NCBI GenBank assembly: GCA_009785395.1
Contig: WQWK01000004.1
Location: forward strand, 1 to 19,931
Source: Conexibacteraceae bacterium
GTDB lineage: Bacteria; Actinomycetota; Thermoleophilia; Solirubrobacterales; Solirubrobacteraceae
DNA: 19,931 nucleotides
Reading direction: 5' to 3'
The translations under genes and the position numbers were made by a program. The notes under the pieces are model-generated. The model made no database searches and had not been told where the DNA came from. It saw only the letters and a list, made by a program, of their open reading frames with translations. This document shows positions 780 to 15,158 of the stretch, piece by piece; within the stretch, counting starts at the first letter, position 1; every line of letters begins with the position of its first letter.

Positions 780-2552
780 GTGTCGTTCGACTCCAGGTCG
801 AGTAGTCCCGGGGGCGCGGTCCTGAGCGGACCGCGCCCCCGCGCTCGCCGCCCGGCCATGCCGACGTTCGGCAACATGCTGCAGGCGAGCTTCTGGGTTG
901 TGCTCGTCCTGATCATCCTGCTGCCGTGCCTGGCGTTCTTGGTCCTGGCCGTCTCGCCGAGACTGTTCGATCAGGGCAACTCGTACTTCACGCTGCATTA
1001 CCTCGGCAGCGTCTTCACCGGCCAGACCGCTGTTGCGATCGGCAACTCGCTGTGGGTCAGCGCGGTCGCGTCGATGATCGGCGTGGCGGTCGGCTTCCCG
1101 GTTGCCTGGGTCACAGCCCGCACCGACCTGCCGGGCCGCAGCCTGATCACCGCGGGCATGTGGCTCGTGCTGCTGCTGCCGAGCTGGCTGCCGTCGCAGG
1201 GCTGGGTGCGGCTCGTGCAGCTCGATGGGGTCATGTACCGGATCGGGATCGACGCGCCGTTCATCACGCACACGATTCTCGGTCCGTTCGGAGTGGTGCT
1301 CGTGCTCGGTCTGCGCAACGTCCCGTTCGCGTATCTGGCGATCAGCATCGCGCTCGCCGGCATGGGGCAGGAGTTCGAGGACGCGGCCCGGGTCCACGGC
1401 GCGTCGCGCTGGCAGTCGATCCGGGTGGTGGCGCCGATCATCGCCCCGGCGATCTGGTCGGCGCTCGCGATCGGCTTCGCGGAGGCCGTCAGCGACTTCG
1501 GTGTCGCGGCGACGCTCGCCTACCAGGCGAACTTCTCGCTCGGCACCTATCAGCTCTATGCCTTCATCAACAACTTCCCGCCCAGCTTCCCGGGCGCCGC
1601 CTCGATGGCGTGGCTGCTGGTGGCGTCGGTCGGCATCCCGCTGGCGCTCCAGGCCCGCGCGCTGCGCGGGCGTTCCTACGCGGTCCTCTCCGGCCGCTCG
1701 CGGCAGGTGATCCGCCGGCACGTCGAGCTGCGCGGCAGGGTGCTGTCGCTCGGCGCGATCGGCTTCTTCTTCCTAATCGCGCTCGGAATCCCAGCGCTGG
1801 GGGCGATCAGCGGGTCGCTGCTCGCCGACTACGGCGCCTCCTTCTCGCTCACCACCACGAACTACTCGGCTGTGTTCAGCTCATCGGACCTGATCGCGCC
1901 GATGATCAGATCGCTGGAGTACGGTGCGATCACCGCGACGATCACGGTCGTGCTCGGCTACGTGGCGGCGCGTCAACTCACAAAGGTCAAGACCCGCGCG
2001 ACGCGCTTCCTAGACTTTCTGCTGCTCGCCGCCGTGGCGATCCCGAGCGTGATCTTCGCCGCGGGCTACATCATGGCCTACAACCTGCCCATCCTCTCGC
2101 GCATCGGGATCAACCTGTACCAGACCGTCGGGCTGCTGATCATCGCCTACGCGGCGTCCAGCCTTCCGACCAACGCACGTGTTCTGGTGGGCATCGTCTC
2201 CCAGCTGCAGGCCTCGCTGCAGGACGCCGCACGCGTCCACGGCGCCAATCCCGTCATCGCGTGGCTGCGCGGAGTCGCGCCGCTGATCTCGCGCCCGCTG
2301 CTCTACGCCTGGCTGCTCACCTTCACTGGGGTCTTCCTTGAGCTGCCGATCTCGCAGCTGCTCTACGCGCCCTCGAAACCGCCGATCTCGGTTGCGATCC
2401 AGGACAACCTCAGCAACTATCACTTCGGTGTCGGCACCGCCCAGTCGGTGGTCGCGGTTCTGCTGGCGCTTGCCGTGGTGGTCTGTGTACTCAGTGCATA
2501 TAGGCTGCTGACACCCAACGGGTGGCGGCGGATCGGAGCTTCCAGTGGCTGA
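780..2552 (+). CDS. ABC transporter permease, fused two-domain type
   Basis: This 590-residue polytopic membrane protein contains two consecutive copies of the binding-protein-dependent permease domain, as in FbpB- and ThiP-like permeases, so one polypeptide would form the whole membrane channel. Each half has several hydrophobic segments and a cytoplasmic EAA loop that docks the ATPase: EDAARVHGAS near residue 200 and QDAARVHGAN near residue 481. The two loops are nearly identical. The GTG start at 780 is preceded by the purine-rich GAAGAAG. ATG 858 (Met27) is an alternative that starts closer to the first membrane segment and leaves the strong hairpin outside the coding region, but it has no evident ribosome binding site. 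The 3' end overlaps the ATPase gene by 8 nt. Substrate unknown. Confidence 0.93.
   Translation: MSFDSRSSSPGGAVLSGPRPRARRPAMPTFGNMLQASFWVVLVLIILLPCLAFLVLAVSPRLFDQGNSYFTLHYLGSVFTGQTAVAIGNSLWVSAVASMIGVAVGFPVAWVTARTDLPGRSLITAGMWLVLLLPSWLPSQGWVRLVQLDGVMYRIGIDAPFITHTILGPFGVVLVLGLRNVPFAYLAISIALAGMGQEFEDAARVHGASRWQSIRVVAPIIAPAIWSALAIGFAEAVSDFGVAATLAYQANFSLGTYQLYAFINNFPPSFPGAASMAWLLVASVGIPLALQARALRGRSYAVLSGRSRQVIRRHVELRGRVLSLGAIGFFFLIALGIPALGAISGSLLADYGASFSLTTTNYSAVFSSSDLIAPMIRSLEYGAITATITVVLGYVAARQLTKVKTRATRFLDFLLLAAVAIPSVIFAAGYIMAYNLPILSRIGINLYQTVGLLIIAYAASSLPTNARVLVGIVSQLQASLQDAARVHGANPVIAWLRGVAPLISRPLLYAWLLTFTGVFLELPISQLLYAPSKPPISVAIQDNLSNYHFGVGTAQSVVAVLLALAVVVCVLSAYRLLTPNGWRRIGASSG
809..841 (+). 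other. Perfect 14-bp inverted repeat at the start of the permease gene
   Basis: Positions 809-822 and 828-841 are exact reverse complements around the 5-nt loop TGAGC, giving a very GC-rich stem. No T-tract follows, so it is not a classical intrinsic terminator. It sits 71 nt after the solute-binding protein stop, either in the first codons of the permease (start GTG 780) or in an intergenic spacer if the permease starts at ATG 858. Such structures between a binding-protein gene and its permease commonly protect the upstream mRNA or lower downstream expression. That role is inferred here. Confidence 0.75.
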
Positions 2553-3750
2553 AGCTGAACGACTCGAGCTCGACGATGTCCACAAGCGCTACCCGGGTGG
2601 GGTGGACGCGCTCCACGAGGTGTCGCTGAGCGTCGGCGCCGGCCGCTTCCTGGTGTTGCTGGGCCCGTCGGGCTCGGGCAAGTCGACGCTGATCCGCTGC
2701 CTGGCCGGGATCGAGCGCCCGACCGCGGGCACGATCGCGATCAACGGCGCGGTCGTCGCCGACGGCCGCCGGCACGTCCCGCCCGAGCAGCGCGACCTGG
2801 CGATGGTCTTCCAGGACTTTGCCCTGTGGCCGCACATGACCGTCGCCGAAAACGTCGCCTTCGCGCTGCGTCGCGGCCGTGGGGGCAAGGGGGACCCCCG
2901 CAAGCGCTCGCTGGAGATGCTCGAGCGCGTCGGCCTGCACCTGCACGCAAAGCGTTACCCGCACGAGCTCTCGGGCGGCGAGCAGCAGCGCGTCTCGCTG
3001 GCGCGGGCGCTGGTCGGCAACCCCGGTCTGCTGCTGTTCGACGAGCCGCTCAGCTCGCTGGACGCGAACCTGCGCGAGCGCCTGCGGATCGAGATCGGAA
3101 CGCTCGTGCGCGAGCAGGGCGCGACCGCGGTCTACATCACCCACGACCAGAGCGAGGCCTTCGCGCTCGGCGACGAGATCGGCGTCCTGCAGTCCGGCCG
3201 CATGGTCCAGCACGGTCCCCCGGAGGCGATCTACCGCAACCCCGCAACCCCGTTCGTCGCGCGCTTCACCGGCCTCGCAGGCGCGTTCGCAGGTTATGTC
3301 TCGGGTCCGGGTCCCGCTGGACCCGGACCCATCACGGTCGTGGTGCCCAGCACGGATCCCGCCCGCAGCCTCGAGCTGGCCGCGACCGCGATGTCCGAGC
3401 TGGCGCCGGGAGCGCCAGTGCAGGTGATGCTGCGGCCGACGGCGGCGCGCATCTGCCGCACCGGCTCACGCTCCGCGATGCTGCGGGGGATCGTCCGCGA
3501 CAGCGCCTTCCACGGCCGCGGCTATGACTACGTGATCGAGCTCGGCGAGGGCCTGCAGCTGACCGGCGTGTTCGACCGTCGGCACTTCAACCGCGGTGAC
3601 GTCGTCGAGTTGTTCGTGAAGCCGGAGGGCTCGCTGGTGTTCGCCGACGACGAGGAGCGCGGCGCGCCGCTGCTCTCGGGCGACGCCGTCGTACGGGCCG
3701 TGCCACCATCAGTATCAGACGCAACCAGGAGTTCGAGCATCGAATCATGA
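2545..3750 (+). CDS. ABC transporter ATP-binding protein
   Basis: This 401-residue ATPase energises the upstream permease from the cytoplasmic face. All nucleotide-binding motifs are present: Walker A GPSGSGKST (40-48), Q-loop Gln90 in VFQDFALWP, signature LSGGEQQ (142-148), Walker B LLLFDEP (162-168), D-loop SSLD (170-173) and switch His200 in YITHD. A C-terminal extension from about residue 235 contains a TOBE-like region around RPTAARIC and LTGVFDRRHF, as in the ferric, spermidine and maltose type importers. The GTG start at 2545 has GGAG about 8 nt upstream and overlaps the permease stop by 8 nt. Its own stop overlaps the next start as ATGA, so the genes are very likely translationally coupled. 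Substrate cannot be read from the sequence. Confidence 0.95.
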   Translation: MAEAERLELDDVHKRYPGGVDALHEVSLSVGAGRFLVLLGPSGSGKSTLIRCLAGIERPTAGTIAINGAVVADGRRHVPPEQRDLAMVFQDFALWPHMTVAENVAFALRRGRGGKGDPRKRSLEMLERVGLHLHAKRYPHELSGGEQQRVSLARALVGNPGLLLFDEPLSSLDANLRERLRIEIGTLVREQGATAVYITHDQSEAFALGDEIGVLQSGRMVQHGPPEAIYRNPATPFVARFTGLAGAFAGYVSGPGPAGPGPITVVVPSTDPARSLELAATAMSELAPGAPVQVMLRPTAARICRTGSRSAMLRGIVRDSAFHGRGYDYVIELGEGLQLTGVFDRRHFNRGDVVELFVKPEGSLVFADDEERGAPLLSGDAVVRAVPPSVSDATRSSSIES

Positions 3751-12215: not shown

Positions 12216-13877
12216 CTACATCGACTCGGGTGCGCTGACCCCAAGCAGCCCGAGCACCAGCGCGAGCTGCGTCTTGGTGGCGACGCACAGGGCGACCCGG
12301 AAGGACTCGACCGATTCCGGCGAGGCGCCGACGACCTTGCAGTCCCGGTAGAAGGCGGTGAAGTCCTGGGCCAGCTCCAGCGCGTAGGCGGCGATCCGGT
12401 GCGGCGCGCGGCGATCGGCCGCCTCGGCGATGTCCTCGGGCAGCGCAAGCAGCTTCTTGATCAGCTCCCGCTCGGACAGATGCAGTTCGGTGTCCGGCGC
12501 ACTCCAATCGGCCCCGGCCGCCACCGCCGACCCAACCCGCTCCGGCCCCAGCCGCGTCAGCATCGAGGCGATCCGCGCGTGCGCATACTGGATGTAATAG
12601 ACCGGGTTCTCGGCGGAATGTGAGCGGGCCAGGTCGAGATTGAGATCCAGAGTCCGGTCGTGCGAGCTCTGCAGCATGAAATAGCGGGTCGCGTCGACGC
12701 CGATCTCGTCGAGCAGTTCATCCAGGGTCACGAACTCGCCGCGGCGCTTGGACATCGCGGCGCGCGTCCCGCCCTCGACCAGGTGCACGAACTGCAGGAT
12801 CAGCACCTCGAGCATGTCGGGGTCGTTGCCGAGCGCCTGGAACGCGGCTTTCAAACGCGCCACATAGCCGTGGTGATCGGCGCCGACCGGCAGCAGTTGC
12901 CGCTCGTAGCCGCGGTCGCGCTTGTTGAGCATGTAGGCGACATCCGCCGCGAAGTAGGTGGGCTGGCCGCCGGAGCGCATCAGGACACGGTCCTTGTCGT
13001 CTCCGAACGTGGTGGTCCGCAGCCAGACCGCGCCATCGTGCTCGTAGACGTGGCCGGCCGCGCGTACGTCCTCCAGCGCGCGGTCGACCGTGCTCGGTGA
13101 GCCCTCGTGCAGCGTGGCCTCGCTGAAGAACGTGTCGAAGTGGACGCCGTAGCGCACGAGCGTCGCCTTGATCTGGGCCAGGAGCACGTCGACCGCCCGG
13201 CGGGCGATCACATCGATGTCGACCGACTCGTCGGCCGCGTCCTCGATCTCCGCGGCAAGCTCCGCGACGTAGTCACCCTGGTAGCCGTCCTCGGGCGGCT
13301 CCAGCCCCAGGGCACGCGCCCGCACCGATTCGCCCAGCCGGCGGATCTGCGAGCCGGCGTCGTTGAAGTAGTACTCGCGTGAAACCGAGTGCCCGTGGTG
13401 CAGGAGGATCCGGGCAAGCGAGTCACCGTAGGCGGCGTGGCGTCCGCTGGCTGCGACCAGCACGGCTGTCGGGTTGGCGGAGACGAACTCGAGCAGGATC
13501 CGCTCGGGGTGCTCGGCGCCGCCCGCACCGAACCGCTCGCCTGCGGTGAGCACCGAGCGCAGCGACGCACGATGCCACTCGTCAGACAGGAACAGGTTGA
13601 GGAACCCGGGTCCGGCGACCTCGGAGCGCTCGAGCGTGGGGCCGAGCCGTGTGGCGAGCTCGTCGCCGAGTCGCTCCGCGATCTCCCGAGGGGGCGCGCC
13701 GAGCGCCGGCGCCAGCAGCATCGCGGCATTGGTCGCGTAATCACCCTGCCCGGCGCGCTTGGGGCGCTCAAGCCGGGGGTCGGGGCCATGAGCGGGGTCC
13801 GTCTCGCCACTGGTGCCACGCAAGGCACCAGTGGCAGCGCCAAGCGCTGTCCGCAGTTCGGCTACCGGATCGCTCAT
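12216..13877 (-). CDS. argS: Arginyl-tRNA synthetase with altered HIGH motif
   Basis: This 553-residue class I synthetase is full length. An Add1-like N-terminal part (GQGDYATNAAMLL at 43-55) is followed by the catalytic core (EFVSANPT at 130-137, REYYFNDAGSQIRRLG at 167-182, LPVGADHHGYVARLKAAF at 329-346), a KMSKS-region AAMSKRRGEF (373-382) and a DALR anticodon-binding domain ending LGLLGVSAPESM. The HIGH signature, expected right after NPTGPL, reads VAAS at residues 141-144 (NPTAVLVAASGRHAAYGD). Both catalytic histidines are missing while the flanking sequence keeps register, so no frameshift explains it. Either the protein is inactive, another argS exists, or this lineage uses a different HIGH variant. 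ATG 13877 overlaps the channel stop (ATGA). Confidence 0.93.
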   Translation of the reverse strand: MSDPVAELRTALGAATGALRGTSGETDPAHGPDPRLERPKRAGQGDYATNAAMLLAPALGAPPREIAERLGDELATRLGPTLERSEVAGPGFLNLFLSDEWHRASLRSVLTAGERFGAGGAEHPERILLEFVSANPTAVLVAASGRHAAYGDSLARILLHHGHSVSREYYFNDAGSQIRRLGESVRARALGLEPPEDGYQGDYVAELAAEIEDAADESVDIDVIARRAVDVLLAQIKATLVRYGVHFDTFFSEATLHEGSPSTVDRALEDVRAAGHVYEHDGAVWLRTTTFGDDKDRVLMRSGGQPTYFAADVAYMLNKRDRGYERQLLPVGADHHGYVARLKAAFQALGNDPDMLEVLILQFVHLVEGGTRAAMSKRRGEFVTLDELLDEIGVDATRYFMLQSSHDRTLDLNLDLARSHSAENPVYYIQYAHARIASMLTRLGPERVGSAVAAGADWSAPDTELHLSERELIKKLLALPEDIAEAADRRAPHRIAAYALELAQDFTAFYRDCKVVGASPESVESFRVALCVATKTQLALVLGLLGVSAPESM

Positions 13878-14731
13878 GTGTGGACGGCCGATTCCAGCGC
13901 GAGCCGGGCCATCTCGGTGGCGGAGATCTTGTACGGCGAGATCACCTCGTCGGCGCCGGCCCGGATCAGCTTGCGCTCGGCGTCCTCGCGGGAGGCGCGG
14001 GCGATGACCCTGATCTCGCTGCTGAGCTCGCGCGCGCTGAGCGCGATGAATATGTTCTCAGCGTCCGAGTCGACACAGGCGATCACGGCGTGCGCACGTT
14101 CGATGCCGGCCCGGATCAACACGTCGTCGTCGGAGGATTGGCCCTCGATGTAAGTGACGCCGTCGGCCTTGGCCGGCTCGCGGTGCATTGGGTTCTGATC
14201 GATCACGACGACCTGGGCGCCGTGGCGCAGCAGATCGCGCGCGACCTGCTGGCCGACGCGGCCGTACCCGCACACGATGTAATGGTCTGAGTAGGAGTCG
14301 ATCATTTTCTGCGTGCGGCGAAGCTGGAGCACGCCGCTCAGCTGCCCGGAGACGAAGAACTCGGCGACCGTCGCCAGGCCATAGAAGAGCGTACCTATCC
14401 CGAGCACCTCGAGACCGACGAGGATGATGCGTCCGACGTTGTTCCTCGGTGCCGGCAGCGAGCCGAGTGTCGTGACGGCGTCAAGGGTCCAGTAGAAGCC
14501 GAAGGCCAGCGAGGTGTGTTCGTCGATCGAGTAGGCGACCGCGCCGACGACCATCACGAGCGTGACGGCGACCAGGAGAACCGTCAGCCGCGTGATGAAG
14601 GCGCGCAGCTCTCGGTCCTGCTGGCGGCGGCGCGCTGCCACGATCCGTGCGGCCGTGTCGTAGGTGACGGCCGGACGGTCGCCTGCCGAGGGCGGCGTGG
14701 GCGAGATGGGCGGTTGGTAGCGGTCCGGCAT
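13874..14731 (-). CDS. Two-helix ion channel with TrkA-N (RCK) domain and unusual filter
   Basis: The 285-residue protein has a cytoplasmic N-terminus, membrane helices at about residues 47-68 and 101-127, a pore helix between them, and a cytoplasmic Rossmann domain (YIVCGYGRVGQQVARDLL at 151-168, VVVIDQNP, EGQSSDDDVLIRAGIERA). This is the layout of prokaryotic 2TM/RCK potassium channels. The filter, normally TVGYGD, reads TLGSLP (88-93, in AVTTLGSLPAPRN). Ion selectivity may therefore differ, or the protein may serve as a sensor. A TrkA-C domain is absent. ATG 14731 is 16 nt after the rlmH stop, with GAGAGG upstream. The stop overlaps argS, so rlmH, this gene and argS form an operon. Confidence 0.88.
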   Translation of the reverse strand: MPDRYQPPISPTPPSAGDRPAVTYDTAARIVAARRRQQDRELRAFITRLTVLLVAVTLVMVVGAVAYSIDEHTSLAFGFYWTLDAVTTLGSLPAPRNNVGRIILVGLEVLGIGTLFYGLATVAEFFVSGQLSGVLQLRRTQKMIDSYSDHYIVCGYGRVGQQVARDLLRHGAQVVVIDQNPMHREPAKADGVTYIEGQSSDDDVLIRAGIERAHAVIACVDSDAENIFIALSARELSSEIRVIARASREDAERKLIRAGADEVISPYKISATEMARLALESAVHT

Positions 14732-14747: not shown

Positions 14748-15158
14748 CTAATGGTGATACGGCTCGCCAGCGAGAATCTTGTGGCCGCGGTAGAGCTGCT
14801 CGAGCAGCACGACACGGGCGAGCTGATGGGGGAGCGTGATCGCTCCGAGCGAGAGCCTGTGGTCGACTCGCTCGAGCCGCAGGCCGCCGAACGGCCCGCC
14901 GATCACGAAGCAGAGATCGCGGCCGCTGGCGCGGCGCTGCTCGAGGAACTCGCTGAAGGCGACAGAGTCGGGTGCCTGTCCCGCGACGTCCAGCAAAGAC
15001 ACGAAAGCGCGCGCGGGGATCCGGCCGGCGACGTGGGCATCCTCGCGAACCTCGATCAGCTCGAGGCGGGCGTAACGGCTCAGCAATTTCGCGTAGTGCG
15101 CGATGTCGTCGACAAATGGAGAGCGCAGCCGGCCTACGGCGACGACGATGATCCGCAC
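14748..15158 (-). CDS. rlmH: 23S rRNA (pseudouridine1915-N3)-methyltransferase RlmH
   Basis: The 136-residue protein is a small SPOUT-class methyltransferase that modifies position 1915 of 23S rRNA in the assembled 70S ribosome. Family landmarks are the start RIIVVAVGRL, the knot-forming SAM site FVIGGPFGG (84-92) and the C-terminal LPHQLARVVLLEQLYR (109-124) followed by ILAGEPYHH. It is somewhat shorter than the 155 residues of the E. coli protein but complete at both ends. GTG 15158 is preceded by a TAGTAT box 9 nt away and by CAGGATC. It is divergent from the DUF3467 gene, with overlapping promoter boxes, and heads the operon with the channel and argS. Confidence 0.95.
   Translation of the reverse strand: MRIIVVAVGRLRSPFVDDIAHYAKLLSRYARLELIEVREDAHVAGRIPARAFVSLLDVAGQAPDSVAFSEFLEQRRASGRDLCFVIGGPFGGLRLERVDHRLSLGAITLPHQLARVVLLEQLYRGHKILAGEPYHH

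Follow-up and report, generated by a model that had tools for sequence, protein, structure and literature searches.

The argS gene in the window, as we call the whole 19,931-nucleotide stretch of DNA analysed here, encodes an arginyl-tRNA synthetase (ArgRS) with VAAS in place of the class I HIGH signature, and the loss of HIGH in ArgRS was found to be spread over much of the bacterial class concerned. Of the class I synthetases compared, only ArgRS showed the loss, CysRS and GluRS being the other two. The state of the motif has changed several times, either by several losses or by an old loss with several regains, and the HIGH-less gene is conserved and usually the single full argS in the genomes checked. 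Judged from the sequences, the gene of the window very probably provides an actinobacterium of Solirubrobacterales type with its ordinary and active ArgRS, one member of a large HIGH-less group. The nearest named relatives of its organism carry the label Solirubrobacterales, which we take to belong to the class Thermoleophilia.

By textbook account, the catalytic signature of class I synthetases lies in the HIGH histidines, and a search of the open-access literature returned no paper on the loss of HIGH in ArgRS. A broad group of organisms seemingly lives on a class I synthetase without both histidines and often without the glycine. Such enzymes are natural test cases for the role of the signature, with near relatives on both sides allowing clean swaps, and they would be missed by annotation that relies on HIGH. 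A comparative study covering Plasmodium and mammals describes HIGH in all class I proteins that it examined (PMC6366043). The HIGH-less ArgRS bear, furthermore, on models in which the backbone and not the side chains carried early catalysis, as discussed in PMC10450160.

The argS gene of the window and its close relatives

Translation of the minus-strand open reading frame gave the local reading EFVSANPTAVLVAASGRHAAYGDSLARIL, in which the motif stands in the context NPT-AVL-VAAS-GRH-AAYGD and residues 141-144 correspond to bases 13457-13446. This agrees with the initial annotation, which had read VAAS at the HIGH site of an ArgRS at this place and had described the register as kept on both sides; C. 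jejuni ArgRS (3fnr) aligned across the motif site with no gap (E 5e-75). All three conserved positions of HxGH are replaced. The GXHH pattern of IleRS2, in which the first and third positions are swapped, is absent too, the third place of VAAS being Ala.

The protein had also been called full length, with AMSK and the DALR domain intact, and the profile searches support both statements. It matched TIGR00456 (NCBIfam) over residues 31-553 with 349.3 bits, the curated equivalog cut-off being 261.65, and the N-terminal (PF03485), catalytic (PF00750) and anticodon-binding DALR_1 (PF05746) domains all scored above their Pfam gathering scores; the best PF00750 stretch covered profile positions 137-303 only, with the HIGH half lying outside. 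The KMSKS-type motif is present as AMSK, its second lysine being K377, and the first position of this motif varies also in HIGH-bearing relatives. The AlphaFold2 model had a mean pLDDT of 94.4 and a pTM of 0.93, and its best 20 fold matches in the PDB were all ArgRS (TM 0.75/0.92 for 3fnr). By profile and predicted fold, the protein is an arginyl-tRNA synthetase, which presumably charges tRNA-Arg. Coordinates are collected in Table 1.

Table 1. Features of argS and its neighbours in the window
Feature	Position	Strand	Basis
argS, arginyl-tRNA synthetase, 553 aa	12216..13877, stop included	-	ORF translation, TIGR00456, Pfam, AlphaFold2, PDB fold matches
Arg_tRNA_synt_N domain, residues 20-97	13587..13820	-	Pfam PF03485, 63.4 bits
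VAAS at the class I HIGH motif site, residues 141-144	13446..13457	-	direct reading, gap-free ArgRS alignment
Predicted helix, residues 142-161, beginning in the motif site and including residue 147	13395..13454	-	AlphaFold2 model, DSSP
His147, third residue past the motif; candidate compensating residue, window's branch only	13437..13439	-	row counts
Tyr169, often common to HIGH-less ArgRS of both branches	13371..13373	-	row counts
AMSK, KMSKS-loop motif, residues 374-377, second Lys kept	12747..12758	-	translation, alignment
DALR anticodon-binding domain, residues 429-553	12219..12593	-	Pfam PF05746, 93 bits
TrkA_N-domain protein, overlapping the argS start; near argS in 5/18 relatives tested	13874..14731	-	Pfam PF02254
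rlmH-like gene; near argS in 16/18 relatives tested	14748..15158	-	NCBIfam RlmH models, all below their cut-offs

HxGH was absent from all 120 best of the 7995 proteins scored, one of them the window's own; 105 read VAAS, nine VVAN, four VAAN, one VAAG and one VTAS, a recurrence well outside what chance would give. Comparison of argS with seven relatives (NG86) gave dN of 0.11-0.22, dS of 0.68-0.92 and dN/dS of 0.16-0.30, and the gene is under purifying selection. The motif codons differed synonymously among these relatives. That VAAS arose as a sequencing, assembly or frameshift artefact was rejected and has practically no probability left, since identical residues recur in independent genomes with different synonymous codons.

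Genes for ccmH and redoxin were found near argS in 13 of the 18 loci tested. The ccmH/redoxin/rlmH neighbourhood was also present at the HIGH-bearing loci L009 (there with no rlmH match), L013, L014 and L016; as these neighbours are common to HIGH-bearing and HIGH-less loci, the motif has changed within one and the same gene. It may be added that positions 780-3750 of the window carry permease and ATP-binding genes of ABC transporters, similar to importers of 2-aminoethylphosphonate, sulfate and polyamines, with every score below the equivalog cut-offs.

Motif states across the class and on the tree

Of 300 genomes of the class, 292 contained an argS-family match, 284 of them over the cut-off; with the protein of the window as query the number was 291 of 300. 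Search-given loci, 120 regions and later 60 more loci were fetched, and the counts below refer to this fetched set and not to all 292 matching genomes. Five partial or unrelated matches and duplicates were left out (254 kept), and the removal of 58 further rows, namely E. coli-type argS copies and most loci from other phyla, left 196. The second sample of 60 genomes yielded 59 usable rows (the short L374 was dropped), and both sets were joined into a 255-row alignment comprising the window, its class and 11 outgroups.

Both HIGH histidines were missing from 139 of the 255 ArgRS rows, His141 was present in 109, and seven lacked the first histidine only. The 139 HIGH-less motifs were mostly T..S forms such as TVAS, TAAS and TVGS: position 141 held Thr (108 rows), Val (30) or Pro (1), position 143 Ala (110), Gly (23), Ser (4), His (1) or Pro (1), and position 144 Ser (105), Ala (16), Gly (14) or Thr/Asn/Gln (4). 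Replacement of the motif throughout a lineage, which the initial annotation had held to be a real possibility, was thus found on a wider scale than had been guessed, with several state changes on the tree. Within the second sample, 56 of 59 rows lacked His141, 51 lacked both histidines and none carried His147. Among 62 loci of other groups (L019-L080), a biased set since they were fetched by similarity to the query, both histidines were missing in three (NVVN in L020, TLGS in L038 and L040), and four others had lost just the first.

Some rows are worth recording individually. L020:6001-7578, an ArgRS from Bacillota, reads NVVN at this site, apparently an independent loss outside the class. L005 reads VAHS, with a third-place His as in the GXHH of IleRS2, and is the sole such row among the 139. 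In L154 (VVPS-GQH) the third place is Pro and the otherwise nearly invariant Arg146 is replaced by Gln. Loci L345-L404, from the branch of G036-G101, form a second HIGH-less branch in which Asn147 is constant and the motifs include TVAS, TVGS, TIGS, VVSA and PVSS; in VVSA the first place is taken by neither His nor Thr.

Two other class I synthetases were read in 19 HIGH-less genomes. CysRS showed HVGN or HIGN, with the first His kept, in all 19, and GluRS showed HIGG, HVGG or HIGN in 16, the other three being unread by the pattern used. An erosion of HIGH across class I enzymes at large was rejected, given that CysRS and GluRS keep the first histidine.

A careful tree was calculated from 81 of the 196 rows, hand-picked across motif states, with residues 138-150 left out and with L015 and L272 as the only members of the later-sampled branch. 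On this tree the loss of His141 needs eight changes and the His147 trait nine; the quick tree of 255 rows gave nine for each, and a further count of the His147 changes gave eight. When all rows without His141 other than L015 and L272, 40 in number, were forced into one clade, the log-likelihood fell by 270 units (AU p = 1.2e-6), and a single HIGH-less clade was rejected by this test, which does not discriminate between repeated loss and an early loss with later regains. The second branch, with 61 rows including L015 and L272, mostly T..S forms, three HVAH and Asn147 throughout, stands beside the 153-row branch holding the window in the 255-row quick tree, where several forks are weak. An old loss followed by several regains is therefore no less possible than a number of separate losses, and the motif may also have been transferred locally from one lineage to another.

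Other argS genes and the activity of the HIGH-less enzyme

Other argS genes were sought in 27 genomes, 25 of which carry a HIGH-less argS (G188 and G191 have HVGH). A single argS-family match was found in 18 of the 25, and a second gene over the cut-off in none. G200-G205 contain an extra ArgRS-like protein of about 600 residues with 100-105 bits versus the cut-off of 261.65, G201 has one more ArgRS-family match (88 bits), and G226 a second argS fragment on another contig with 247 bits, which is below the cut-off. A single contig covers G161 completely, and G205 and G231 for the most part. In the second branch, one argS was found in each of 15 genomes, with pieces adding up in one frame and strays of 18-27 bits; all 15 lack His141 and 14 lack both histidines.

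A complete E. coli-type argS with HVGH (APNVAKEMHVGH) stands beside the TAAS copy in G264-G267 and G269, so that the TAAS copy need not be the only one there. The corresponding loci L103-L107 (G267, G269, G266, G265 and G264) come from five large genomes of 7-9 Mb with both argS types. For L108-L110 (G194, G106 and G107) the best match was an E. coli-type argS and the NPT type did not rise above weak scores; the motif of L109 reads HVAH. Of the proteins of about 600 residues, L305:1108-2907 (G204) and L306:1123-2919 (HIGH-bearing G191) both show HVGH and, by Pfam, a catalytic domain only. Matches of this kind were also seen in G188, G200-G203 and G205, the range to argS being 87-106 bits.

The initial annotation had considered that the enzyme might be inactive or have a new role, a second argS being present elsewhere. 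Such a pseudo-enzyme or regulatory paralogue, with another argS charging the tRNA, would accord with the textbook role of HIGH, with the E. coli-type gene in five genomes and with the extra protein of G200-G205, which has HVGH where read (L305, G204). It is nevertheless very unlikely, and we rejected it: most of the HIGH-less genomes in the first check (18/25) gave no other argS match, the second-branch genomes have one argS each (15/15), the extra proteins score 100-105 bits against 261.65 and that of L305 consists of the catalytic domain only, and the HIGH-less rows keep the other active-site residues tested. Synteny with HIGH-bearing argS and purifying selection point in the same direction, i.e. 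to an active ArgRS.

Retained residues, candidate replacements and precedents

E130, S133, N135, P136, Y308, D312, G332, D334 and H335 were present in all 146 rows without His141, and K377 in 145 of them; we take these, partly from general knowledge, to be ligand-site residues. Two further sites are not fully kept, since D173 is changed to Asn in 5/90 and Ser376 of KMSK to Gly in 12 and to Ala in one of the 146 rows. The second signature motif, KMSK, also wavers in part of the HIGH-less group, at this Ser376. Dependent evolution was assessed on the 255-row tree in 95 tests, not one per column. Tyr169, which occurs in 95% of rows without His141 versus 43% with it, ranked first with a likelihood ratio of 27.7, and His147 second with 27.3; on the 196-row tree His147 reached 23.6, again the second rank, among 255 tests. 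As independent changes are so few, the ratios should not be read as probabilities. Arg379, two past the KMSKS lysine, was found in 62% of rows without His141 versus 13% with it, and the correlated columns other than His147 were 4, 169, 220, 236, 379, 403 and 408. Sign tests on independent pairs in the 196-, 81- and 255-row sets did not reach 0.05.

The HIGH-less ArgRS probably manages through hydroxyl replacements and spread-out compensation, and we infer that it still makes arginyl-tRNA. In Neisseria LeuRS, where HMGH spans residues 49-52, H49 is described as binding the beta-phosphate and H52 the alpha-phosphate (PMC9424281). The phosphate contacts of both histidines would be partly replaced by hydroxyls, those of Thr141 and Ser144 in most HIGH-less rows, and the remaining ones might be provided by the helix N-terminus, Lys377 of the KMSKS loop, Mg2+ and dispersed helpers, among them Tyr169 and Arg379. 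In the sub-branch of the window, Thr141 would have been exchanged for Val after, or together with, the change of Asn147 to His. The Ala that stands for Gly would imply a slightly shifted helix tip which still admits adenine, by analogy with IleRS2. Against an active ArgRS stand the five genomes with a second complete HVGH argS, the variation at D173 and Ser376, HIGH-less rows lacking an obvious stand-in (three VVSA-ARN rows and VVAN-GRA), and the strong impairment reported for full-length LeuRS with Ala in place of both histidines (PMC10450160).

The HIGH-bearing NPT-type bacterial ArgRS (L009 with HVGH, L013 and the Patulibacter L014 with HIGG; solved homologue 3fnr) are orthologous to the window protein with 52-59% identity and share with it the ccmH and redoxin neighbours and the tested ligand-site residues, whereas in the window His141, Gly143 and His144 are replaced and Asn/Gly147 is His. 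The nearest precedent is the G/AXHH of IleRS2, also a natural housekeeping class I synthetase with an altered HIGH. It is reported to be active, to have arisen at least twice and reverted, and to make room for adenine through a displacement of the third motif residue by 1.7 angstrom, and the same source gives an activation rate lower by about a thousand-fold in several enzymes upon mutation of the first HIGH His (Brkic et al. 2023, PMC10485003). IleRS2 keeps one His inside the motif, whereas VAAS, in ArgRS, keeps neither His nor Gly. TrpRS with TIGN has no HIGH histidine either and shares the first-place Thr with most HIGH-less ArgRS (PMC10201369), but it keeps Gly and ends in Asn, while VAAS has no Thr, Gly or Asn. 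In the AVGA mutants of Pyrococcus LeuRS and its urzyme, both histidines are changed to small residues, as in VAAS (Tang et al. 2023, PMC10450160). These are, however, laboratory mutants with Gly kept and a strongly impaired full-length form, in contrast to the natural, full-length VAAS ArgRS.

The motif change could conceivably have been favoured as a protection against some natural inhibitor of the ArgRS ATP site made by soil competitors, comparable to the mupirocin hyper-resistance that the altered motif gives to IleRS2, a reading that we regard as unlikely. To our knowledge, no natural ATP-site inhibitor of ArgRS has been described. The repeated state changes do parallel those of G/AXHH, which arose at least twice and reverted (PMC10485003), and VAHS of L005 has the third-place His. 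On the other hand, the spread over much of the class fits drift equally, and no linked resistance or biosynthesis gene was detected with Pfam or NCBIfam among the 17 window ORFs scanned.

Somewhat better placed, yet still doubtful, is a relocated histidine, in which His147, one helix turn on, would take over an ATP contact in the window's branch. His147 is found in 82 of the 139 rows without both histidines versus 5 of the 109 with His141 (82 of 88 HIGH-less rows in the first sample of 196 rows), it ranked second in both dependent-evolution analyses, and rows holding both His141 and His147 exist (HVGG-GRH and HIGH-ARH). The place, three past the motif, is presumably equivalent to that of Thr51 in TyrRS. 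LeuRS has N55 there, which contacts the ribose 3'-OH (PMC9424281). However, 53 of the 139 HIGH-less rows keep Asn147, which makes the relocated histidine a minority reading; VVAN-GRA (nine of the best 120 of 7995), TTAS-GRG, TVAA-GRG and TAAG-GRG, all of this same branch, do without His147, Tyr169 correlates equally well, and the sign tests stayed short of significance. Moreover, all 59 added rows have Asn147, so that His147 is a mark of the window's branch and no general solution; it may be nothing more than such a branch marker.

A fuller scenario of the same kind is equally tentative: the ArgRS active site may have been rebuilt without HIGH across much of the class, first with T..S hydroxyls, and in the window's branch the catalytic His may then have moved by +3 to the ribose-contacting place (GRH) via HVGG-GRH, HIGH-ARH and TVAH-GRH, until even Thr141 was given up (VAAS). 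It is possible that His147 lets Val replace Thr141; among the 30 V-type HIGH-less rows, only the VVAN row and the three VVSA rows lack His147. VAAN-GRH, found in four of the best 120 of 7995 proteins, may represent a step between VAAS-GRH and VVAN-GRA.
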